Part shown: in pieces, positions 1-40,557 of the stretch | Position numbering within the stretch: the first letter of the stretch is position 1 | Layout: every line of letters begins with the position of its first letter | Virus record (IMG/VR): IMGVR_UViG_3300029811_000150 | Location: 1 to 47,028 of that record | From: a virus | Direction: 5' to 3' (one strand) | Length of the DNA: 47,028 nt | Notes under the pieces: model-generated | Seen by the model: only the letters and a program-made list of their open reading frames with translations | Told to the model about the DNA's origin: nothing | Databases searched by the model: none | Translations under genes and position numbers: made by a program

Positions 1-111
1 GGGGGGGGGGGGGGTGGTAAAGAGAAAAAAAAAAAAAAAAATTTTTATTAATAAATATGAAAATAAGGTTTATTTTTTATAAATTTTATTTTTTTTTTTT
101 TTTTTTTTTTT

Positions 112-256
112 AATAAAGAAGAAAGGAAACTGAGAGTAACACGACTGGGAAGAAAAGTAACACAGAAGGTAAAGAGAACAGAAAGGTCAATGGAATGGGA
201 ACGAATCCCTAGGGGCAGTTACATGATAATTTCATAATTTGTTATTTGTTATTTGT
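112..256 (+). repeat. Left copy of degenerate inverted terminal repeat
   Basis: Four blocks occur in the same order here and on the reverse strand of about 46540-46668: AGGAAACTG (124-132), CAGAAAGGTCAATG (179-192), ACATGATAATTT (221-232) and a TTTGTTATTTGTTATTTGT tract (238-256). Spacing between blocks differs by up to about 20 bases, so this is a diverged repeat. Both copies abut a T-run on the outer side. Confidence 0.6.
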
Positions 257-411: not shown

Positions 412-783
412 TTATTTAAGTCCTAATTTTTCCAGGAGTGCCAACTCAATCTCACTCAGTCCACCAGCCGCTACTAACTTGGCGGCTTCTTTCTTAACGG
501 AAGTCTTTTCCTTTGCAGGAGTCTTCCATATTCCTTTCACCAGGGATTCATACCGCTCAGTCATAACCTTAACTTTCTCCTTCATGGTATAATCTTTCAT
601 CCCTGCAATCTTATCGCTAAGATTTTGTTTGAATCCGTAGGTAACTAATCCTCTCTGAACTTCAGTCATCTTCTCAATCTCTGGGAAGAGCATCGTTAGA
701 TCATAGGTATCAAGGATAGTATTCTCAAAGCCTATCTGGATAGTACCTTCTAAGTAGGTCCACTTAATTCTTTCTTGTGCCAT
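412..783 (-). CDS. Small phage protein, paralogue of the 40038-40397 product
   Basis: This 123-residue protein has no recognised enzyme motif. ATG at 783 is chosen because AAGGAG lies just upstream. Its central and C-terminal parts resemble the product of 40038-40397: a YD..LFP/YD..LPP segment, then YGFKQNLSDKIAG against FGLSHRIGDAAAG, then LVKGIW against LVDGNW, with both ending LLEKLGL. The two genes lie near opposite genome ends. It is probably expressed early from the tandem leftward promoters at 1150-1252. A 25-bp inverted repeat encloses it. Function is unknown; a small soluble DNA-associated or regulatory protein is only a guess. Confidence 0.75.
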   Translation of the reverse strand: MAQERIKWTYLEGTIQIGFENTILDTYDLTMLFPEIEKMTEVQRGLVTYGFKQNLSDKIAGMKDYTMKEKVKVMTERYESLVKGIWKTPAKEKTSVKKEAAKLVAAGGLSEIELALLEKLGLK

Positions 784-807
784 GATATTGCTCCTTATTT
801 TGCAATA

Positions 808-832
808 GCAAGGCAATCTATTTGTGACTACT
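808..832. repeat. 25-bp inverted repeat A, 5' arm
   Basis: Partner of 375-399 (23/25 complementary). It sits just upstream of the Shine-Dalgarno of the leftward gene 412-783. In the leftward RNA the arms could pair into a panhandle closing the whole gene. Confidence 0.85.
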
Positions 833-27147: not shown

Positions 27148-28659
27148 ATGATGGAGCAATATGCTGGTAGAGTTGTTGAAGCAGGGGAGAAGGTTATAAC
27201 AGAGAGACCCTTCATGCATCATTCTTGGCATCCAGCTATGAAATCTGAATTAGAAAGGCTGAATAAGGGCTCCACCTTAATGTCTCCTCCAATGACTAAG
27301 CTGCATAGTAGAGCAGCTGGTTATATGCCTATGGTTCCAGATGCAGAATATAGTGTTACTTCTTATCTCCAGGACATTAATATTCGACTAGAGGCTATGA
27401 ACTTCTGGAAGAAAGGAAAGCCAGATGGATGGTGGGCCTATAAGAAGTGGATCACAGAGAATCCAAGTCAATGTCCAGAAGGATTGATTAAAACTTTCAA
27501 TCAATTTGAAAAAGGTTTTATACCTGTTGATACATCAGGAGGGTTTAATAAGTACGCCGAAAAAATATATGCTCTAGAAGTCGCAAGGTTGCTTGCCTTT
27601 TCAGAATCTGTTCCCTTTAAACACACTTTAAAATTGATTGCTGATCTTAGAGTATTTGGAGTGGAAGGAGTAAAGGCAATGCCAAAGGCAGCCTTTGCAA
27701 TTACTAAAATTGCTATTAAGCAGAGGGGAGGAGAGGCATGGCTTAAGAAACATGGATTTAGCTTAGACTATATGGATGAAGCAATAGAAACTTATACAGA
27801 AACAGGGAAACTCTATAGAGTAGTTTCTGATATTTCTCCATTTAGAGTAAATGAAAGTATGGCTGATAAAGCTTTGAATAAGTTTAATGAGATAGGTGGC
27901 ACACCTACTTCGATAGTTGAGAGATTTGATAGGGCTTTGTCAGTGGTAGCTAGTATGAATATGGCAGCGAAAAGAGGAATGACTCCTGCCCAGGCAACTT
28001 ATGCTGTCTTTGATACTATCTTGAAATCAAACTTTCTAAGTGGGCAACTCAATCCGGCTACAATAAGAAATCCTTTTATAAGACTTATGATGATTTTTCA
28101 GGGAACTCCACATAAAATCCTGGAACAAAGAGTTGCTCTGCATGGAAGAGCTTGGAAAGGAGTAGCAGATACGCTTGCTCAACTAAGGAAAGATGTTGTT
28201 CGAGGGGAACAAGACTTCAAATGGGAGATGATTAAACAAGGCTTTGGTAAGCAGAAAGATATATTTGGGAATACTCTTTTATCTCAATCTATAAGGGAGA
28301 TGGTGCTTATTGGAGCTGGTATTACAGCAGGTAAGTATGCTTGGGACGGGGACTTGAGTCATCACTTCTTTCACATTCCATACTTCAAAACCCAAAAAAG
28401 AGATATTGCTATAGGAGCTTCACCCTTAGTTAATGCAAGTTTGGAGACTTACTCTAAATTCATGGACGAAGATTATGATGAATTCTTAGTATCGACTTTC
28501 TTTAATTCATGGTTTGATAGTACAATAAAAGGAGTACCGGCTCCTATTCCAGTTAACTTCAAGAAGGCTATTAGGTTAACCGAAAACGATATTCCTGATA
28601 GGTATCGTGACAGTAAACTTCGCTATTTGTTTGGAGTACCGGCATGGGATCATGATTAA
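27148..28659 (+). CDS. Second large ejection / polyvalent-type protein
   Basis: The 503 residues are helical, with PFMHHSWHPAMKSELERL, a middle rich in aromatic and charged residues, and RNPFIRLMMIFQGTPHKILEQR near 310. A short hydrophobic segment follows (MVLIGAGITAGKYAWDG), then FGVPAWDHD at the C-terminus. The layout resembles the C-terminal part of large polyvalent-type phage proteins. Since it starts 4 nt after the 1122-residue gene, the two may be halves of a protein that is fused elsewhere. Its TAA overlaps, tail to tail, the stop of the leftward HNH gene. Confidence 0.55.
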   Translation: MMEQYAGRVVEAGEKVITERPFMHHSWHPAMKSELERLNKGSTLMSPPMTKLHSRAAGYMPMVPDAEYSVTSYLQDINIRLEAMNFWKKGKPDGWWAYKKWITENPSQCPEGLIKTFNQFEKGFIPVDTSGGFNKYAEKIYALEVARLLAFSESVPFKHTLKLIADLRVFGVEGVKAMPKAAFAITKIAIKQRGGEAWLKKHGFSLDYMDEAIETYTETGKLYRVVSDISPFRVNESMADKALNKFNEIGGTPTSIVERFDRALSVVASMNMAAKRGMTPAQATYAVFDTILKSNFLSGQLNPATIRNPFIRLMMIFQGTPHKILEQRVALHGRAWKGVADTLAQLRKDVVRGEQDFKWEMIKQGFGKQKDIFGNTLLSQSIREMVLIGAGITAGKYAWDGDLSHHFFHIPYFKTQKRDIAIGASPLVNASLETYSKFMDEDYDEFLVSTFFNSWFDSTIKGVPAPIPVNFKKAIRLTENDIPDRYRDSKLRYLFGVPAWDHD

Positions 28660-29147
28660 GGAAAATTAAGATAAGCAAATTCTCCAAACTCTTTAGAAGC
28701 TGCTTTGTCGTAAGCTAAAGCAGCCTCTTTTTCTGTATTGAAACTACCAAGAGTTCGATTGAATTTCTGATCTAGAAAATCAACTATTTGTATTCGAGCT
28801 TTCCATTTTGCTCGATGCTTCATCCAATAAACCCCTTTATATTTAGATGTGCAATGGCTACGTTTTCTGCGATTTCGATTATTCTCTTGTGAAGTACATA
28901 TACGCAGATTCTGTTTTTGGTTATTTAATGTATTATGATCTTTATGATCTACCATCATATCTTCAGGACAATTCATTATAAAGCGAGCTATATTGGTTAT
29001 TCTATTATTATTTTTGTTTCTTCTTGTTACAATAAAGCATTTAGTACACTTGCTCCAACTAGCTTGCCAGCTATATCGATTTAACCACTCGAAATCTTCA
29101 TCATCTACTAGAGCAACCTGTTCTTGAGTTAAGAGAATCTCTTTCAT
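28656..29147 (-). CDS. HNH homing endonuclease with AP2 domain
   Basis: The 163-residue product has an N-terminal segment (LLTQEQVALVDDEDFEWLNRY) and an HNH nuclease motif (MVDHKDHNTLNNQKQNLRIC) at about 75-95. A C-terminal AP2-type DNA-binding domain follows (SKYKGVYWMKHRAKWKARIQ, LGSFNTEKEAALAYDKAA). Such free-standing endonucleases cut an allele lacking them and spread by repair. It is the last gene of the leftward module and converges on the late operon. A second, shorter relative lies at 34306-34761. Confidence 0.88.
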   Translation of the reverse strand: MKEILLTQEQVALVDDEDFEWLNRYSWQASWSKCTKCFIVTRRNKNNNRITNIARFIMNCPEDMMVDHKDHNTLNNQKQNLRICTSQENNRNRRKRSHCTSKYKGVYWMKHRAKWKARIQIVDFLDQKFNRTLGSFNTEKEAALAYDKAASKEFGEFAYLNFP

Positions 29148-31529: not shown

Positions 31530-32009
31530 TTAATAACATTCTCGTGATACAATTCGACTTACCATAGATTGAGTTATCTTAAACATCTTTCCTATAAAGT
31601 GCTGTGGAAATCTTCCAGCCAGTCTTCGAATTAACCATATTTCTCCAGATTTAAGCTTCCCACTGTGGCCTTTGGTCTGCAACCCAGTTCTCCATGCATG
31701 AAGAGCATTGTAGCTTCGAGTGCAATATTCTAGATTATCGTGACAATTGTCTTGCTTGTTACCATTTTTATGATTTGTTTCTGTTAAACCTTCTGGAGCA
31801 GGTCCTGTAAAAGTTCTCAAGACCAAATAATGCATAGCAATCTTCCAGGCTTCCTTGACGCCAAAATAAAGATTTATGTAGAAGTATCCATTAGTATCAA
31901 CAAAAGGCTTTAATAGGATACCTTTTCGTCTGATATTTCCTTTATTGGATACTTCATAATCATATACATTCCTAAAAGGTAAGAATTTCCATAATTCTTC
32001 TATAGCCAT
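31530..32009 (-). CDS. HNH endonuclease with NUMOD4-type N-terminus
   Basis: ATG at 32009 is 10 nt inside the 3' end of the polymerase gene. The 159-residue product has a NUMOD4-like start (EELWKFLPFRNVYDYEVSNKG), an HNH core (ETNHKNGNKQDNCHDNLEYC) and a C-terminal helix-turn-helix (SGEIWLIRRLAGRF, MFKITQSMVSRIV). This is the architecture of phage free-standing homing endonucleases. It sits directly downstream of the polymerase and overlaps it by 10 nt. Confidence 0.87.
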   Translation of the reverse strand: MAIEELWKFLPFRNVYDYEVSNKGNIRRKGILLKPFVDTNGYFYINLYFGVKEAWKIAMHYLVLRTFTGPAPEGLTETNHKNGNKQDNCHDNLEYCTRSYNALHAWRTGLQTKGHSGKLKSGEIWLIRRLAGRFPQHFIGKMFKITQSMVSRIVSRECY

Positions 32010-34315
32010 GAGATATCTTGCTCCTTCATTTCTCCCCAATTATCGCCAACACAGAAACTTACATCTATCTTCATAGTTTCCCTACCAACTGGAACTTCCT
32101 TAATCATTATCTTCCTTAGCTCCTTCATTATATCTATAGTCTCACTGTGATGAACAAGAGAATAGATTGCATCATGCAATTGAAGATATATTCTGATATC
32201 ATTTCCTAATTTATCATAAGTCTCTCTCAGAGATATATTTAAGAGTTCCCCAATAGAGGACTGTGGAATATAAGCATAAGCGCTCCTGAATAAAGAGTCT
32301 CCCCATCTATCTAGAAACTTATGTTTCCTTCCAAAGAGGTTAATCATAGTTCTATCTTGCCTAAGCTGCATCTGGATTCTCTTATGCCAGATAGGAAGGA
32401 GATGGTTCTTCTGGAAATATAATTTTAAGAGGGGTTTAGCTTGAGCCATAGAAATATCAAGTTTATTAGCAAGGACTCCAGGGCCGCTTGCATAATTGCT
32501 TGCATGGCGCATGGTTTTCCCTATTGTTCTTTGTTCCTTAGTTACTTCCTCCAAGGGAATATCATACATGAGAGCAGCAGTATATCTATGAACGTCGTAA
32601 CCTTTAGCCCGTTCAGAACCAGACATTCCAAAGGCATCCTTGAAAAGCTTCATCAAGACTGTATCTAAGCAGAGATAGGCTACTGCAACTGCCTCAGCCT
32701 GAATATAATCTGCCTCTAGTAGAACGTATCCCTTAGGAACAGTATAGAGAGTCCTAGCTTCCTTAGGAATATTCTGTAGATTGCCTGGACCATAGGAAAG
32801 TATAATTGATTTAGAGGAGGACCACCTTCCTCCAAAACCTGTTCCTGTTACATTATAAGAAGAATGAACTCTATTCTCAGGGGACACTGAAATATCAAGG
32901 AAGGTGGATATAAGTTTAGATGCTTTTCTTCTCTTTATGATAAAAGCTGGAACTTCATGCATCCTCGCTAACTTTTTAAGGGCATCCTCTCCTGTAGTAA
33001 GCTTCTGCTTCTCACGAATACTCTTTCTCCTTTTATATTGAGGAGGTAATTCAAGATCTATATAGAGGAGATTCTTAACTTGAGCAGGACTGTTATAGTT
33101 TACTTCTTTGCCCACCAACTTTAGGAGTTCTGCATCTACTTCTTTTAGATTCTTTTTTGCTTCTACAACTAACTCCTCTTTCTTCTTCATATCAACGAAG
33201 AGTCCTTGGAGTTGAAGCATAGAGGCTGGCTCAATCCAAGACATCTCCCTTTGAAAGGTCTCCCAGAGATCTCTCTTCTTCAGTAACTTCTCCATAATAG
33301 GAGCAATACACTTTGTGTTGAGAGCATCTAGAGCGTTATATTCTCCTGGAGCAGTCTCAGAAAGATGCTTCCATGCTGGTACATCGAGGAGAATACTTGT
33401 TACATACTCTAGACTCTTTGGAAGTTCTGGCCACAGATTATGAGCGGCCACTAAAGTATCCATATAGAGATTATAAGTGGGGATTCCGTTCCTTAGAAAG
33501 AGAACTGACAAATCATAAGTGGCATTGTGGTAGATAATTGGGAGTTCTGAAATAACTCTTCCTATCCACTCCCAGATTTCTAGCTCATCTCTTTCAGGAA
33601 ATAGAGGAACCTTTCCCTTTAAAGTGCCAAGGGTGAATGCCCAGACAGGAGAGTTAGAAAAACCTATTCTATTGATATGAGCCTGAACGGCTTCTATATC
33701 CACAGCGACAGGCTCCTTTTCATCCAGGAGACGCTGGCATAACTCTATGAAATTAGCTTTAGTTGGGTCAATTATAAGTTGGCGTCTATCTTCTGGAATG
33801 TCTGGAAAGCCAGAATGATATAGAGCCTTTTTCAGGTCCATCACTACTGTAGTAGCAAGACTCCAATCGTAGCCTACTGCTTGAGGATGATAACTGGGAA
33901 CCAGCTTTTGTCCTGGAACTAGAGTAGAGGTAGTGACTGATCCTCTAGCATGCTTTATTCCTTTCCTTCCAGTCAATGCCCAAAGAGCAGTATTGCCCAT
34001 TGCTACAACAACATTAGGCCTGTATGTTTCTATCTCTTTCTTTAAAGTAGCTATATATTCGAGCATCCTGGGAGTTGGTATCTTGCAGCCTTTATCTACA
34101 AAATAATGCTTCATGTCGTTTCCAGGTGCTTTTTCACGAGCAACATTGGCTATTAAACATTGTGACCTTATAATACCTGCTTGAGAAAGAAGAGTATTTA
34201 AGGTATTCCCAGCTTTTCCGACGAAAGGCTTACCTGTTCTATCCTCTTCAATCCCTGGAGCTTCTCCAAGTAGCATGATATCAGCGGTAACTGGTCCGGA
34301 GGTTTTCACATGCAT
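32000..34315 (-). CDS. Family A DNA polymerase fused to an N-terminal uracil-DNA glycosylase-like domain
   Basis: The 771-residue replicative polymerase has three parts. Residues 1-170 are UDG-superfamily: GEAPGIEEDRTGKPFVGKAG (17-36) and SYHPQAV (141-147). The N-terminal Cys pair and CRP-type Cys of iron-sulfur UDGs are absent. About 200-340 is a 3'-5' exonuclease with D206/E208, N264/D268 and Y326/D330. The polymerase follows, with motif A LEADYIQAEAV (D536), O-helix RTIGKTMRHASNY (R596, K600, His604, Y608) and motif C QLHDAIYSL (HDA, not HDE). The UDG-PolA fusion resembles SPO1-type polymerases. His occupies the site equivalent to E. coli Pol I Phe762. Endonuclease genes overlap both ends. 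Confidence 0.92.
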   Translation of the reverse strand: MHVKTSGPVTADIMLLGEAPGIEEDRTGKPFVGKAGNTLNTLLSQAGIIRSQCLIANVAREKAPGNDMKHYFVDKGCKIPTPRMLEYIATLKKEIETYRPNVVVAMGNTALWALTGRKGIKHARGSVTTSTLVPGQKLVPSYHPQAVGYDWSLATTVVMDLKKALYHSGFPDIPEDRRQLIIDPTKANFIELCQRLLDEKEPVAVDIEAVQAHINRIGFSNSPVWAFTLGTLKGKVPLFPERDELEIWEWIGRVISELPIIYHNATYDLSVLFLRNGIPTYNLYMDTLVAAHNLWPELPKSLEYVTSILLDVPAWKHLSETAPGEYNALDALNTKCIAPIMEKLLKKRDLWETFQREMSWIEPASMLQLQGLFVDMKKKEELVVEAKKNLKEVDAELLKLVGKEVNYNSPAQVKNLLYIDLELPPQYKRRKSIREKQKLTTGEDALKKLARMHEVPAFIIKRRKASKLISTFLDISVSPENRVHSSYNVTGTGFGGRWSSSKSIILSYGPGNLQNIPKEARTLYTVPKGYVLLEADYIQAEAVAVAYLCLDTVLMKLFKDAFGMSGSERAKGYDVHRYTAALMYDIPLEEVTKEQRTIGKTMRHASNYASGPGVLANKLDISMAQAKPLLKLYFQKNHLLPIWHKRIQMQLRQDRTMINLFGRKHKFLDRWGDSLFRSAYAYIPQSSIGELLNISLRETYDKLGNDIRIYLQLHDAIYSLVHHSETIDIMKELRKIMIKEVPVGRETMKIDVSFCVGDNWGEMKEQDISWL

Positions 34316-34761
34316 GCTGTTTCCCCTTCCCCAGGAAAATTCAGAGCAGCAAATTCACCATAACTTATTCTGGAGACTTGCCCAAAAATATCTTCCACTC
34401 TTATTCTTGCTTGCCATTTTTTTGAGTTTTTATGCCATGTTATTCCTTTATATTTTGATTTTCCTTTTCTACTTTTACTGTTAGCACTGTTTTCTCTGTC
34501 AGAGCATACTCGTAAATTATATTTTTGATTATCAAGTGTGTCTTTATTTTTATGATCTACAATTTTACCTTTAGGAAAGTTCATTATAAAACGAGCTAAA
34601 TAAATCACTGCCTTATTATTAGAATAATCTATTCTTCTAGCGTAAAAACTTTTTGTAACTGAACTCCATTGAGCATGCCAGTTATATTGATTTACTCTCT
34701 CAAAATCTTCATCATCTACTAAAGCGAACTTTTTTTGTGTGAGGGAAATTCTTTTCATCAT
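34306..34761 (-). CDS. HNH endonuclease with shortened AP2 domain
   Basis: This 151-residue relative of 28656-29147 shares LTQKKFALVDDEDFE, the LARFIMNFPKGKIVDHKN HNH core and KYKGITWHKNSKKWQARIR. Compared with its relative it lacks about 20 residues of the AP2 domain between VSRIS and YGEFAALNFP. DNA binding may therefore be impaired, as in a decaying homing gene. The ATG overlaps the methyltransferase stop and its end overlaps the polymerase start by 10 nt. Its 3' end supplies the GGGGAAGGGG ribosome binding site of the polymerase. Confidence 0.85.
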   Translation of the reverse strand: MMKRISLTQKKFALVDDEDFERVNQYNWHAQWSSVTKSFYARRIDYSNNKAVIYLARFIMNFPKGKIVDHKNKDTLDNQKYNLRVCSDRENSANSKSRKGKSKYKGITWHKNSKKWQARIRVEDIFGQVSRISYGEFAALNFPGEGETACM

Positions 34762-36062
34762 TCTCCCTTCAAATATTCAGCAATTCTTTTATTAGCTGTA
34801 TTATAAGCCTCTACCTTTTCGTCACATCCTCTAACAATTAGCTTTTGGCTTAACCCAGCCTCTAAAGCAGCGCCACTACCAGTAAATGGATCATAGAGTT
34901 TCTGGCCTGGAAGAGAAACTCTTCTAAGAAGTTTTTTCAAAAGAGAAACTGGCTTTTCAGTAGGATGAATCCTTTTACTCTCTAGAACAGGATCCTCTTG
35001 AATCCAGTCAGGCATCCCTTGTACCACCAACTTTGAAGTAGCCTTTCTACAATAAAGGATCATTTCATAGCAAGAGGAAGGCCATCTTTCTGGCATATTA
35101 CATTGACCAGATTCTCGTTTAATCCAAATCATAGGCTTGATATATGCATCCCAACCAGCCTCAATCATCATTCCCCTTATAAGAGAAAAGAATTCTGGTG
35201 CAACGAATATATAAGCATGAGCACTTTCAGTAGTAAAGCGATAGGACTCCCCTGCAAGAGTTTTATAAAGAGCTAGAGCTTTCTCTGTAGAGTCATCAAA
35301 TTTATATCCACTCGTAGAGAAACCTCCAGTTGAATTGCCAATAGAAGTAGCTATCTTATCTATCTCTATTCCGTATGGAGGATCTGTTAGGAGAATATCT
35401 ATAGATTTATCTTCTTGCTCCTTCATATCAATGGAAGCTTCCTTGAGCAGGAGCTCAACTTTACTTTCCTTTTCAAGAAGAACTTCCCATTCCTGAACTG
35501 CCAAGGCATGATCGACAACTTGTTGGCAACCCTTTACTGCTTTCTTTATAGCTTTTTGTGTCTTGAGCGAGCGAAGCTCAGGGAAGTCCTTTAGTGCAGC
35601 AGAGATAGCAATATTATCTATGACAGTTCCCTTTGACTTTCCTATTGCCTCGGCTGTATCACTTAGCTTCCAGCCTCCCTCCCTTCCACTTGAAGTTTCT
35701 CCATAGAGTTTTTGCTTCAACTCATGAAGATCTGCAATAGCATCTGCTTCGTCGGCAGGAGAGAGGTCCTCCCTTTGAAGATTTTCCTCTAGCTCAATCT
35801 CTCTCATCTGGATTGGAGTTAGATTTCCCTTATACATACATCTTACATTGATGCCACCAAGTAGGCAAGCTGCTAACCTTCTCCCACCAGCAACGAGTTC
35901 TAACTTTTCCGTCACTATAATGGGGTGGAGTTGCTTCTTCTCAAGGATAGATGCAAGTAACTCCTTTACTTTTTTGGAGTCCCTTCTATAACGAGGGAGG
36001 TCTTCGTGGACTACTATATTTTGAGGAGGAGAATAAAAGATTTTATCTTCGTCTATAATCAT
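34758..36062 (-). CDS. ParB-domain / DNA methyltransferase fusion
   Basis: The 434-residue product has an N-terminal ParB/Srx-like nuclease-type domain (residues 1-115, with LVAGGRRLAAC and ELEENLQREDL) and a KorB/ParB-type HTH (WKLSDTAEAIGKSKGTVIDNI). A C-terminal N6-adenine/N4-cytosine methyltransferase domain follows, with DPPYG (227-231) before HPTEKP (366-371) and DPFTGSG (391-397), the order of the beta class. Such fusions are frequent in phages and probably target methylation that protects phage DNA. Upstream lies a structured gap flanked by dispersed palindromes. Confidence 0.9.
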   Translation of the reverse strand: MIIDEDKIFYSPPQNIVVHEDLPRYRRDSKKVKELLASILEKKQLHPIIVTEKLELVAGGRRLAACLLGGINVRCMYKGNLTPIQMREIELEENLQREDLSPADEADAIADLHELKQKLYGETSSGREGGWKLSDTAEAIGKSKGTVIDNIAISAALKDFPELRSLKTQKAIKKAVKGCQQVVDHALAVQEWEVLLEKESKVELLLKEASIDMKEQEDKSIDILLTDPPYGIEIDKIATSIGNSTGGFSTSGYKFDDSTEKALALYKTLAGESYRFTTESAHAYIFVAPEFFSLIRGMMIEAGWDAYIKPMIWIKRESGQCNMPERWPSSCYEMILYCRKATSKLVVQGMPDWIQEDPVLESKRIHPTEKPVSLLKKLLRRVSLPGQKLYDPFTGSGAALEAGLSQKLIVRGCDEKVEAYNTANKRIAEYLKGE

Positions 36063-37307: not shown

Positions 37308-38048
37308 TTATTTTTTCTTCCCTTTCAAAGCTTTCTCTCTCTTCAATGCTTTCATTACAGCATCATAACTATTCGGCAGAAAGTCAGGGAGAAGATGAGT
37401 CTTTCCACTCAATCTACTCCTTGCCTTAGTGTAGCCAATGGGAACAGTTTGAATCATCCATTCTGTATTTTGACCAACTCTTTTAGTAGTACAATAGTAG
37501 ACTTCTTGGAAGGCACCAGGAATCTTCTCCCTAAGCTGACCAGTTAAGAGAGGAGATATATCTATAATATTTCCAGTCTTTTCATCCTTCACAATATCAA
37601 TGTGACTGATTATAATCACGTTACACTGAAGGTTGACTATCTGCCTGAGCTTGCCTTCCATAAGGTTACGAACCATCATGAAGTGAACGTTCCAGATAGG
37701 CCCTCCCGTTGGACTTCTCTTAGGATCGAGTTGCATAGCTCGAGCCATAGCAAGGTCAGTCATCCTGGAGGTAGAATCCACCACTACAGTAATATATTCA
37801 CCTTCATCTATAGCTTTCTTAACTCGAATTAAATCTTTCTCAAACTTAATCCAGCCTTGCCAGTCATCGCTATACTGTTCATAGTCAAAGTTCAGTCCTT
37901 TATAAGTAATTATCCCTTCATCAAAGTCGAAGATGAAGCCTGGAGTAGGACAGGAACTAGCGAAGACGGACTTGCCTGTGCCATAGGTTCCAATTAACAT
38001 GGCCTTGAAGAATTCAGTATCTATAGTTACATTTTTAGCATTAGCCAT
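37308..38048 (-). CDS. Sak4-like RecA-fold ATPase
   Basis: The 246 residues have Walker A IGTYGTGKS (19-27), a Walker B-type strand EYITVVVDSTSRM, and CNVIIISHIDIVKDEKTGN. This is the AAA_24/Sak4 family, single-strand annealing or RecA-like recombinases of phages. It would promote strand annealing or exchange with the adjacent SSB-like protein and the Cas4/AddB-like nuclease upstream. It starts 2 nt past the stop of the small membrane gene and ends with a Lys-rich tail. Confidence 0.85.
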   Translation of the reverse strand: MANAKNVTIDTEFFKAMLIGTYGTGKSVFASSCPTPGFIFDFDEGIITYKGLNFDYEQYSDDWQGWIKFEKDLIRVKKAIDEGEYITVVVDSTSRMTDLAMARAMQLDPKRSPTGGPIWNVHFMMVRNLMEGKLRQIVNLQCNVIIISHIDIVKDEKTGNIIDISPLLTGQLREKIPGAFQEVYYCTTKRVGQNTEWMIQTVPIGYTKARSRLSGKTHLLPDFLPNSYDAVMKALKREKALKGKKK

Positions 38049-38289: not shown

Positions 38290-39342
38290 TTAAGCAGAAG
38301 AGTCAAAGGTTGACCTTTCTGGTTGCTTCTCAGCTCGATTAGCATTTTCCACTTTTAACTTTTCTATGAACCTTTTTGTTGAGAGGTCAAGGAAGTTTTT
38401 CTTGTTTATAAGAAATCCTTCTGGGATATAACCTTCCTCTATATCATCTCTTACTCTTTCTAAAGGCTCATTCCTTTCACAAATATTACAGAATTGACAC
38501 CTTCCGAATTGGTAACAGCTGTCAAACTGCATAGGCCAAAGATCCTTCTTTTGATATTCTACTAACTCAGAACAAGTAGCAAGGAAGCTCATTCGCCAGG
38601 CTTCTAAGTCTCCCTCTGTAAAGATATGAGGGAATCTTTGAAACTTTTTTGTCATCTTTCCCCACTCCCCATCTTGTTTCCTTTTTGAGGAAAGCTGATG
38701 AATGTCAACCATGCAGCCTTCAGTAGGAAAGTCTAGGGCATGATGCCCAGCATAGGAATAGCCAACAATTTGAGGGCTCCTATGGAGTCTGCCTCCCTGG
38801 GTACTGATAGCTTGACCAGTCGACTTAGCTTCGAGTATCCAGGGCATACCTGATAATTCAATCTGAACATCAAGACGACCATTGAAGTGGATTTCGAGAG
38901 AAGCCAAATTAGGAAAATATTTCTTCTCGCTCTTAGTCAATTCCATGGAGCAGTCAAACATCTGCTCTGTTTCTATAACTTTGAGCATGTTATAGTCATG
39001 TTGAAATTCTGTGCAATATTCTAGGAAAGCAATTGTGGCATTCTTTAGAGTTCTATAATCAGTCTCATCAAAAGTCTGACCATAGGCTTCAGTTTCATGC
39101 TGCCAAACGGCTGCGCCATATTCAGCTGCCTGTTGTATAGCCTTTCCATCACGAGACCAGCCATTTTCTTTAATATGGCTATAGTAACCCTCTATAAAGC
39201 CGTGCCAAGTTGAGCCATATCTTAAGGCAACTGATCCCCTTGTAGGAATGAGGCCTAGTTCTTTAGTGAGAAAGTATTTTCGCTTGCAGAGGTGAAAGTT
39301 AGACCTATAAGTATTATCTAGTTCTAGAATTTGCTTAGTCAT
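38290..39342 (-). CDS. PD-(D/E)XK nuclease, Cas4/AddB-like with Fe-S cysteines
   Basis: ATG at 39342 follows GGAGG. The product of about 350 residues has an N-terminal C19 (HLCKRKYF), the nuclease core GRLDVQIELSG..ILEAKS (D158, E171, K173), and a C-terminal cysteine set CYQFGRCQFCNIC. One N-terminal plus several C-terminal cysteines is the iron-sulfur arrangement of AddB/Cas4 exonucleases. It probably makes single-strand tails for the Sak4-type annealase. The C-terminal PERSTFDSSA is encoded by palindrome copy 13. Confidence 0.82.
   Translation of the reverse strand: MTKQILELDNTYRSNFHLCKRKYFLTKELGLIPTRGSVALRYGSTWHGFIEGYYSHIKENGWSRDGKAIQQAAEYGAAVWQHETEAYGQTFDETDYRTLKNATIAFLEYCTEFQHDYNMLKVIETEQMFDCSMELTKSEKKYFPNLASLEIHFNGRLDVQIELSGMPWILEAKSTGQAISTQGGRLHRSPQIVGYSYAGHHALDFPTEGCMVDIHQLSSKRKQDGEWGKMTKKFQRFPHIFTEGDLEAWRMSFLATCSELVEYQKKDLWPMQFDSCYQFGRCQFCNICERNEPLERVRDDIEEGYIPEGFLINKKNFLDLSTKRFIEKLKVENANRAEKQPERSTFDSSA
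38297..38322 (+). repeat. Dispersed palindrome copy 13, at a gene 3' end
   Basis: AGAAGAGTCAAaggTTGACCTTTCTGG. Read on the reverse strand it encodes the C-terminal PERSTFDSS of the nuclease gene, so the repeat has extended a protein. Confidence 0.88.
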
Positions 39343-39571
39343 TGCTCCTCCATACACGAGTTTCGTAAGACGAGTTAAATCTTTCTACTCGTGAAATCAT
39401 TCTTTGGATTATATTTTCTGCTTGATGTGCAAGTTCACAAAGCTGCGCATCGAGCAAGCTACTAGGAGGATTCAATGAACCTCTGGCACCTTTAAGTTTA
39501 AATAAGTAAAAGTTTCGTCTTTGTGCCCATCTTTGAGCTGGTGTGGGGAGTTTAAAAGTTTGAGTTGGCAT
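39335..39571 (-). CDS. Hypothetical 78-residue helical protein
   Basis: The product starts MPTQTFKLPTPAQRWAQRRN, has a basic aromatic region (FYLFKLKGARGSLNPPSS) and a C-terminal amphipathic helix (LCELAHQAENIIQRMISRVE). GGAGAAAG lies upstream of the ATG. Its last 8 nt overlap the nuclease start (ATGACTAA). It is the first gene below the 0.45-kb gene-free tract. Family unknown. Confidence 0.55.
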   Translation of the reverse strand: MPTQTFKLPTPAQRWAQRRNFYLFKLKGARGSLNPPSSLLDAQLCELAHQAENIIQRMISRVERFNSSYETRVWRSND

Positions 39572-40037
39572 TTATCTTTCTCCTTTTATATAAGATAAAT
39601 AGTTAAAGGCAGGGCTTTCCACCCCGCTTGCTGGTTTGTCGGCGACTGGTGGGACCGATCACTAGGATGACATTACTGTCAGACTTGAGTATCAATGCTA
39701 TCCTATTCGCTCACTCAAGACTTTATTTTGTCCACAGACTATTGAGCAGTAGGCTTCAAGGGGCACTTCGCCCACCACAAAGGGAATCATAGCCTCGCTC
39801 TCAATAAATGAACTATTGCTTGACAAGTTACGAGGCTCCCTATTGCCTTCAACTTGCCATAATAGTTCAAGGGAATTAAACAGTAACATCTCATTTACCG
39901 TGCTTTCTTCGCAGCCCTCGCAACTGTGTGCGCACTTACTTGCCACATTCCTTCTCACGCAGCCTCTAGAGTTAAGCTTCGCTGAGGTAGCACTCGGATG
40001 GCAACTCCTTTCAATGAGATATTACAAACTTGAAATG
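39572..40037 (-). ncRNA. Candidate large structured non-coding RNA
   Basis: This 466-base tract between two leftward genes has no convincing gene. Its paired segments, on the + strand, are: CTTGAGT (39684-39690) with ACTCAAG (39713-39719); GGGC/GCCC (39761-39773); AGCCTCG (39791-39797) with CGAGGCT (39831-39837), flanked by GGG/CCC; TGAACTATT (39809-39817) with AATAGTTCA (39861-39869); CAAGTT (39824-39829) with AACTTG (39851-39856); and TTGCCA (39940-39945) with TGGCAA (39999-40004). Helices 39791:39837 and 39809:39869 interlock as a pseudoknot. It probably spans most of 39590-40030, read leftward. Its class is unknown. Confidence 0.5.
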
Positions 40038-40397
40038 CTACAGGGACAATCCCAGCTTCTCCAGGAGGGCCTTTGCAGCTGCTTGCTCCTTCGGATTCAT
40101 CTGGTCAATCTTGTCAGTGAGGCCCTTCTTGGTGAGCTTCTCACCGGCGGGAGCACGGACAGTCCAATTTCCATCTACCAGACCCTTCCAAACCTTATCC
40201 ATTGCATCGACTGCTTCTTTTCCCTTCTTACCAGCAGCGGCATCGCCAATTCTGTGGGATAAGCCAAAGGGACCGAACTTAGTCTGAATGTCAGGGGGGA
40301 GCTTAGCAAAGTCGTAACTCCTATCCTGGTTACTTTCAATCTCTTTAATCTTAAGGATTGTTCCTTCAATCACTTTTGTCATACGCTTTGCTGCCAT
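40038..40397 (-). CDS. Small phage protein, paralogue of 412-783
   Basis: ATG at 40397 follows AAAGGAG; the upstream TTG at 40421 lacks such support. The product of about 119 residues begins MAAKRMTKVIEGTILKIKEIE and contains YDFAKLPPDIQTKFGPFGLSHRIGDAAAG, cut here into its recognisable parts YDFAKLPPDIQ and FGLSHRIGDAAAG. It has GLVDGNWTVRAPAG and ends KALLEKLGLSL. The pattern is recurrent in phage genomes but unnamed. The gene near the left end is a diverged copy. It is expressed from the promoter at 40564-40592 together with the ribbon-helix-helix gene. Confidence 0.72.
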   Translation of the reverse strand: MAAKRMTKVIEGTILKIKEIESNQDRSYDFAKLPPDIQTKFGPFGLSHRIGDAAAGKKGKEAVDAMDKVWKGLVDGNWTVRAPAGEKLTKKGLTDKIDQMNPKEQAAAKALLEKLGLSL

Positions 40398-40557
40398 TTT
40401 TACTACTCCTTTGGGGAGCAAGGCTCCCTTGTGTTAGGTGATTATCTAGAGCTAGTCGAACCAACTCTGACATTGAAATTGCTGCTTTTGCAGCAGCTAT
40501 CTTGAGAACTTGTTTATACCCTTTCGGTAAGACTATATGAAAGTGCTCCATGATCAT
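40366..40557 (-). CDS. Ribbon-helix-helix DNA-binding protein, leaderless mRNA
   Basis: The 63-residue product has the Arc/CopG layout: a beta strand HFHIVLP followed by two helices (YKQVLKIAAAKAAISMSELVRLALDNHL). It should bind DNA as a dimer and act as a repressor. The consensus promoter -10 (40564-40569) places the transcript start at the A of the ATG (40557). No ribosome binding site is present, so translation would be leaderless, like lambda cI from PRM. Its 3' end overlaps the next gene by 32 nt. Confidence 0.68.
   Translation of the reverse strand: MIMEHFHIVLPKGYKQVLKIAAAKAAISMSELVRLALDNHLTQGSLAPQRSSKNGSKAYDKSD

Follow-up and report, generated by a model that had tools for sequence, protein, structure and literature searches.

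Within the 47,028-base viral record analyzed here over its full length (the window), a gene-free tract of 466 bases (positions 39572 to 40037, minus strand) lies inside a leftward cluster of DNA-recombination genes. A sequence-only reading had described the tract as gene free, with poor codon structure, and coding scores bore this out. The longest open reading frame (ORF) in the tract scored -0.03, compared to 0.25 ± 0.09 for genes and -0.12 ± 0.12 for noncoding (wrong) frames, all frames fell below the coding range, and none gave a family match in Pfam or PHROG. We ruled out a protein gene within the tract on these two grounds, neither of which revealed the conserved protein in one frame that the reading had named as a reason to abandon an RNA.

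The genes around the tract are all on the minus strand, in the order RHH, g119, tract, g78, RecB-like, and Sak4. The first gene of this short unit (40366 to 40557) encodes a 63-amino-acid protein that is RHH type by reading and had no match in a Pfam search. It is followed by g119 (40038 to 40397), a small protein conserved in a 38-member alignment and located directly upstream of the tract. On the other side, the tract adjoins g78 (39335 to 39571), an orphan ORF with a marginal coding score, after which come a RecB/Cas4-like PD-(D/E)XK nuclease (38290 to 39345; Pfam PF12705, E value of 2.6e-12) and a Sak4-like annealing ATPase (37308 to 38048; phrog_124, E value of 5e-26). The tract had been placed between operons, which is not clearly so, as it sits inside one leftward gene run. 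That an RHH promoter lies upstream of it, as had been proposed, is plausible, because a sigma-70-like -35/-10 match, TTGCAA-17-TATAAT with an extended -10 (TG), precedes the RHH gene (40592 to 40564, minus strand; a match to the consensus alone).

The predicted structure of g119 had a pLDDT of 88, and family and fold searches with this protein returned no match giving a function. An ORF at the opposite end of the window (412 to 816, minus strand) is a likely g119 paralog, judging by the spacing of the G..D..AAG, GLxxGxW, and LLEKLGL motifs, which the two have in common when compared by eye. At the other border of the tract, a 9-bp hairpin read from the sequence (39570 to 39600, minus strand; arms 39570 to 39578 and 39592 to 39600) places the g78 Shine-Dalgarno sequence in its loop, and two start-codon bases fall in its stem. 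This arrangement suggests a separate translational control, possibly a switch, at the start of g78.

Several other features of the window lie outside this cluster or extend beyond it. The 13-bp palindrome GTCAANNNTTGAC is dispersed in 15 exact copies (263, 1451, 4153, 14562, 16925, 19308, 23410, 25557, 29511, 36083, 36271, 38302, 41927, 44243, and 46610), compared to approximately 0.05 expected, and was the best of all 5-mer dyads tested. Copies are mostly in gaps or at gene ends, some follow the likely g119 paralog, and 12 share [C/T]TTTCT as their plus-strand right flank regardless of gene direction. The palindrome also occurs in 13 of 20 related virus records, at 1 to 14 copies each, and in a bacterial metagenome-assembled genome (MAG), where 10 of 11 copies are on a phage-like contig. 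Its appearance fits a stoperator-like operator dispersed throughout the group, a site resembling parS, or a compact terminator. By reading, one ORF (34758 to 36062, minus strand) joins a ParB-like N terminus to a DNA methyltransferase-like C terminus, and three free-standing minus-strand ORFs (28656 to 29147, 31530 to 32039, and 34306 to 34761) resemble HNH-type homing endonucleases. The left end of the window (1 to 112) has long G, A, and T homopolymer runs, possibly an assembly artifact or a true terminal feature.

Pairing on the minus strand divides the tract into a series of hairpins. Domain 1 (39883 to 40025), which the sequence-only reading had missed, is a 13-bp stem with one GU pair (arms 40013 to 40025 and 39883 to 39895) that begins 12 nucleotides (nt) after the g119 stop codon and closes 117 nt. 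Hairpin 2 (39809 to 39869) combines a 9-bp stem (39861 to 39869 with 39809 to 39817) and an 8-bp stem (39852 to 39859 with 39822 to 39829). Its loop pairs with downstream sequence through the 7-bp helix AGCCTCG/CGAGGCT (39831 to 39837 with 39791 to 39797), which interlocks with the 9-bp hairpin to form a candidate pseudoknot spanning 39791 to 39837. Hairpin 3 (TATTGAG/CTCAATA, 39740 to 39806) and hairpin 4 (CTTGAGT/ACTCAAG, 39684 to 39719) follow, and TAGGAT in the loop of the latter is complementary to ATCCTA at 39663 to 39668, making a second candidate interlock. There are nine perfect 7-bp pairs in the tract, and the 9-bp and several shorter complementary pairs reported earlier, two of them interlocking, were all present.

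The individual helices of 6 to 9 bp picked out by that reading are mostly near chance for 466 bases; for example, 24% of dinucleotide-shuffled versions contained a perfect 9-bp helix. Taken together, the helices tell a different story. The tract contains 11 helices of 7 bp or longer, compared to a shuffle mean of 5 (reached by 1% of shuffles), and within 150 nt such helices interlock in seven pairs, compared to 0.6 (0.7% of shuffles; P = 0.007). Short-range helices of this minimum length take in 66 bases, compared to 18 in shuffles, a value reached by none of 150. The 70-nt segment around the 61-nt hairpin 2 (39803 to 39872) had a folding z score of -5.5, and none of 500 shuffles was as strong. 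The nested minimum free energy (MFE) of the whole tract was not significant on the minus strand (z of -1.25; plus strand, -2.3). An unremarkable value is expected when many helices interlock, since these cannot be scored together, and it also leaves room for chance. We conclude that the tract is noncoding and, with its helices taken together, structured beyond chance.

Searches of phage records, viral contigs, and related genomes found no close homologs of the tract. A DNA search of phages with the tract gave no match, comparison with 23 related records gave chance-level matches alone, and g78 used as bait recovered no close relatives. One 16-mer from the tract matched six viral contigs and was rejected, the likeness ending at those 16 bases. 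The one close relative of the region, L008, has a Sak4 that is 85% identical, and its contig stops before the tract. More distant relatives were gathered from viral and genome contigs by searches with Sak4 and with alignments of g119 and RecB, yielding approximately 50 contigs on which g119, the gap, the RecB-like gene, and Sak4 follow in that order. The gap is 93 to 600 nt long, has almost no primary sequence similarity between lineages, and in some cases holds an additional small gene, which looks HIRAN-like by eye in L010 and L016, with other genes elsewhere.

What these gaps retain is a stem. Among 36 distinct junction gaps, stem strength had a mean z score of 4.3, and 69% of gaps beat all 40 shuffles; 162 other intergenic gaps from the same contigs had a mean of 0.65 (9% beat all shuffles), and coding sequence had a mean of 0.31 (3%). 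Folding z scores averaged -3.4 for the junction gaps and -0.2 for RecB coding sequence. The stem typically starts 10 to 30 nt past the g119 stop codon, and domain 1 is its positional counterpart in the window. One subclade (L050, L052, L054 to L056, and L058 to L061) has overlapping g119 and RecB genes, with no gap and no hairpin, implying that the genes can keep this order without the junction element. The g119/RecB gap of L048 (4443 to 4620), on a contig binned as Micrarchaeota, holds a tRNA-like acceptor and T arm with an overlong middle (GCAAGGG...GGTTCGAACC...CCCTTGCAACCA), which ARAGORN did not call as a tRNA whether introns were allowed or not.

Covariation among homologous gaps had been proposed as a check on the RNA, and it could be followed in the relatives, where the junction hairpin covaries between close pairs; the tract itself yielded no close homolog for the comparison. 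The close pair L033/L040 showed two compensatory changes, two one-sided changes, and no broken pairs, and further compensatory changes were found for L014/L042 (two) and L027/L038 (one). When stems were scored symmetrically, GU pairs outnumbered AC pairs in the transcribed sense by 29 to 8, a count that includes some near-duplicate lineages. Another count, of 31 to 0, was discarded because its stem scoring favors GU. At least four T residues occurred in the 8 nt after the stem in 13 of 26 stems (background, 16%), and TTT directly followed the stem in 8 of 26 (background, 2.5%). Compensation, the excess of GU over AC, and the U-rich 3' side together point to an RNA on the g119-to-RecB transcript and, for about half of the lineages, to termination or attenuation of transcription.

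Given these observations, we place about even confidence in the reading that the tract is a transcript-level hairpin conserved in position, resembling a terminator or attenuator, which has here been enlarged to a multidomain structured RNA. The tract would then be untranslated, structured RNA within a minus-strand message extending from the RHH gene across g119 to the recombination genes, and its first helix would be the local version of the hairpin that most relatives keep regardless of sequence. Such a hairpin would most likely end, pause, or attenuate transcription and protect or stabilize the RHH-g119 message at its 3' end. Expression of the recombination genes behind it would thereby be lowered, leaving g119 more abundant than the downstream RecB-like, Sak4, and SSB proteins. 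Small RNAs derived from 3' untranslated regions (UTRs) are likewise structured RNAs directly downstream of a coding gene on the same transcript, and the enlarged tracts of 360 to 466 nt with multiple hairpins may persist as stable 3' RNAs.

The likeness to intrinsic terminators, attenuators, and stabilizing 3'-UTR hairpins lies in the stem shortly after a stop codon, the retention of structure without sequence, the U-rich tail seen for roughly half of the relatives, and the RNA-strand bias. Unlike intrinsic terminators, the junction stems often lack a U tail, and their loops can reach 50 to 120 nt and be structured themselves. A scan for canonical terminators between 39200 and 41500 found none. 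The window version has a 13-bp stem closely following the g119 stop codon, as a terminator would; however, a GC-rich stem, a short loop, and an immediate T run are found in part of the relatives alone, and the window has an AU-rich stem, a 117-nt loop, and the tail TGTTTAATT, with 300 nt of additional helices after it. These departures, the lack of a U tail in half of the relatives' stems, the subclade without a hairpin, and the nonsignificant MFE of the tract all count against the preferred reading.

We think it unlikely that the tract is instead a self-standing large pseudoknotted RNA, resembling GOLLD or ROOL, that is produced from the RHH promoter, processed from the message, and active in trans or in an RNA-only complex. 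This alternative draws on the surplus of interlocking pairs and of helices reaching 7 bp or more, and on the fact that the tract is not an isolated oddity. Long gene-free multihelix tracts occupy the junction in 5 of the 36 gaps, namely, the window and four unrelated lineages, L010, L036, L047, and L082, where they measure 360 to 410 nt. All five exceed shuffled sequences in helix bases (window, 66 versus 18; L010, 52 versus 13; L036, 37 versus 14; L047, 75 versus 20; L082, 57 versus 24). Comparison of the five revealed no common sequence core, which implies several independent enlargements at one junction.

Nor do the long tracts form a recognizable RNA family. The Rfam search suggested earlier was run, and the tract had no match at the gathering score and nothing convincing up to an E value of 10; the GOLLD and ROOL covariance models were likewise absent from its matches at either level. 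None of the five long tracts gave a convincing match, the sole match being a spurious subthreshold plant microRNA, and fifteen loci searched at the gathering score returned a single match, to a tRNA. Like GOLLD and ROOL (Nature 2025, PMC12286853), the tract is phage borne, gene free, several hundred nucleotides long, and multihelical, with candidate pseudoknots, and it resembles them in size and apparent complexity only. Membership in that class is defined by a discrete large RNA that forms a homo-oligomer. The tract differs in having neither a covariance match nor a sequence core conserved across lineages, and GOLLD and ROOL are located near a tRNA island, whereas there are no tRNA genes beside the tract or anywhere in the window. 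Most relatives, moreover, have the short hairpin alone. The earlier proposal of a large structured RNA thus holds insofar as the tract is noncoding and structured and the relatives' gaps covary; it does not extend to a discrete RNA of the GOLLD/ROOL type, given the lack of an Rfam match and a junction-conserved part that is a single hairpin. The likeliest role for the tract is control at the level of the transcript, by termination or attenuation, and it may be released as a small RNA; this reading is preferred over that of a giant RNA machine.

It is quite unlikely that the tract is mostly unconstrained spacer or a gene remnant with one ordinary hairpin, its elaborate helices having arisen by chance. 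The frequency of the 9-bp helix in shuffles, the whole-tract MFE, and the weak coding score of downstream g78 would fit such an origin, but the combined helix content, the hairpin 2 segment, and the junction-specific hairpins of the relatives speak against it. We regard as improbable a bolder possibility, that the g119/RecB junction of this phage group is reserved for large pseudoknotted RNAs that evolve fast, are retained for fold and position and not for sequence, may be bound by g119, and act in trans during infection. A DNA-level element (a replication origin or a recombination or packaging site), with the inverted repeats acting as DNA, is very unlikely: recombination and replication genes adjoin the tract and its inverted repeats are strong on both strands, but the excess of GU over AC and the U-rich tails on one side alone argue for RNA, and GC skew turns at 866 and 28675, away from the tract, on which ground a replication origin there was rejected.

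If the preferred reading of an enlarged transcript-level hairpin is correct, dozens of divergent phage lineages have kept a structured RNA element at one junction while conserving almost none of its sequence. Such elements would by design escape RNA-family searches that depend on sequence, and synteny combined with structure would offer a route to finding them. A search for phage RNAs that adjust how much of the recombination proteins is made would then have a specific site to start from, the g119/RecB junction.
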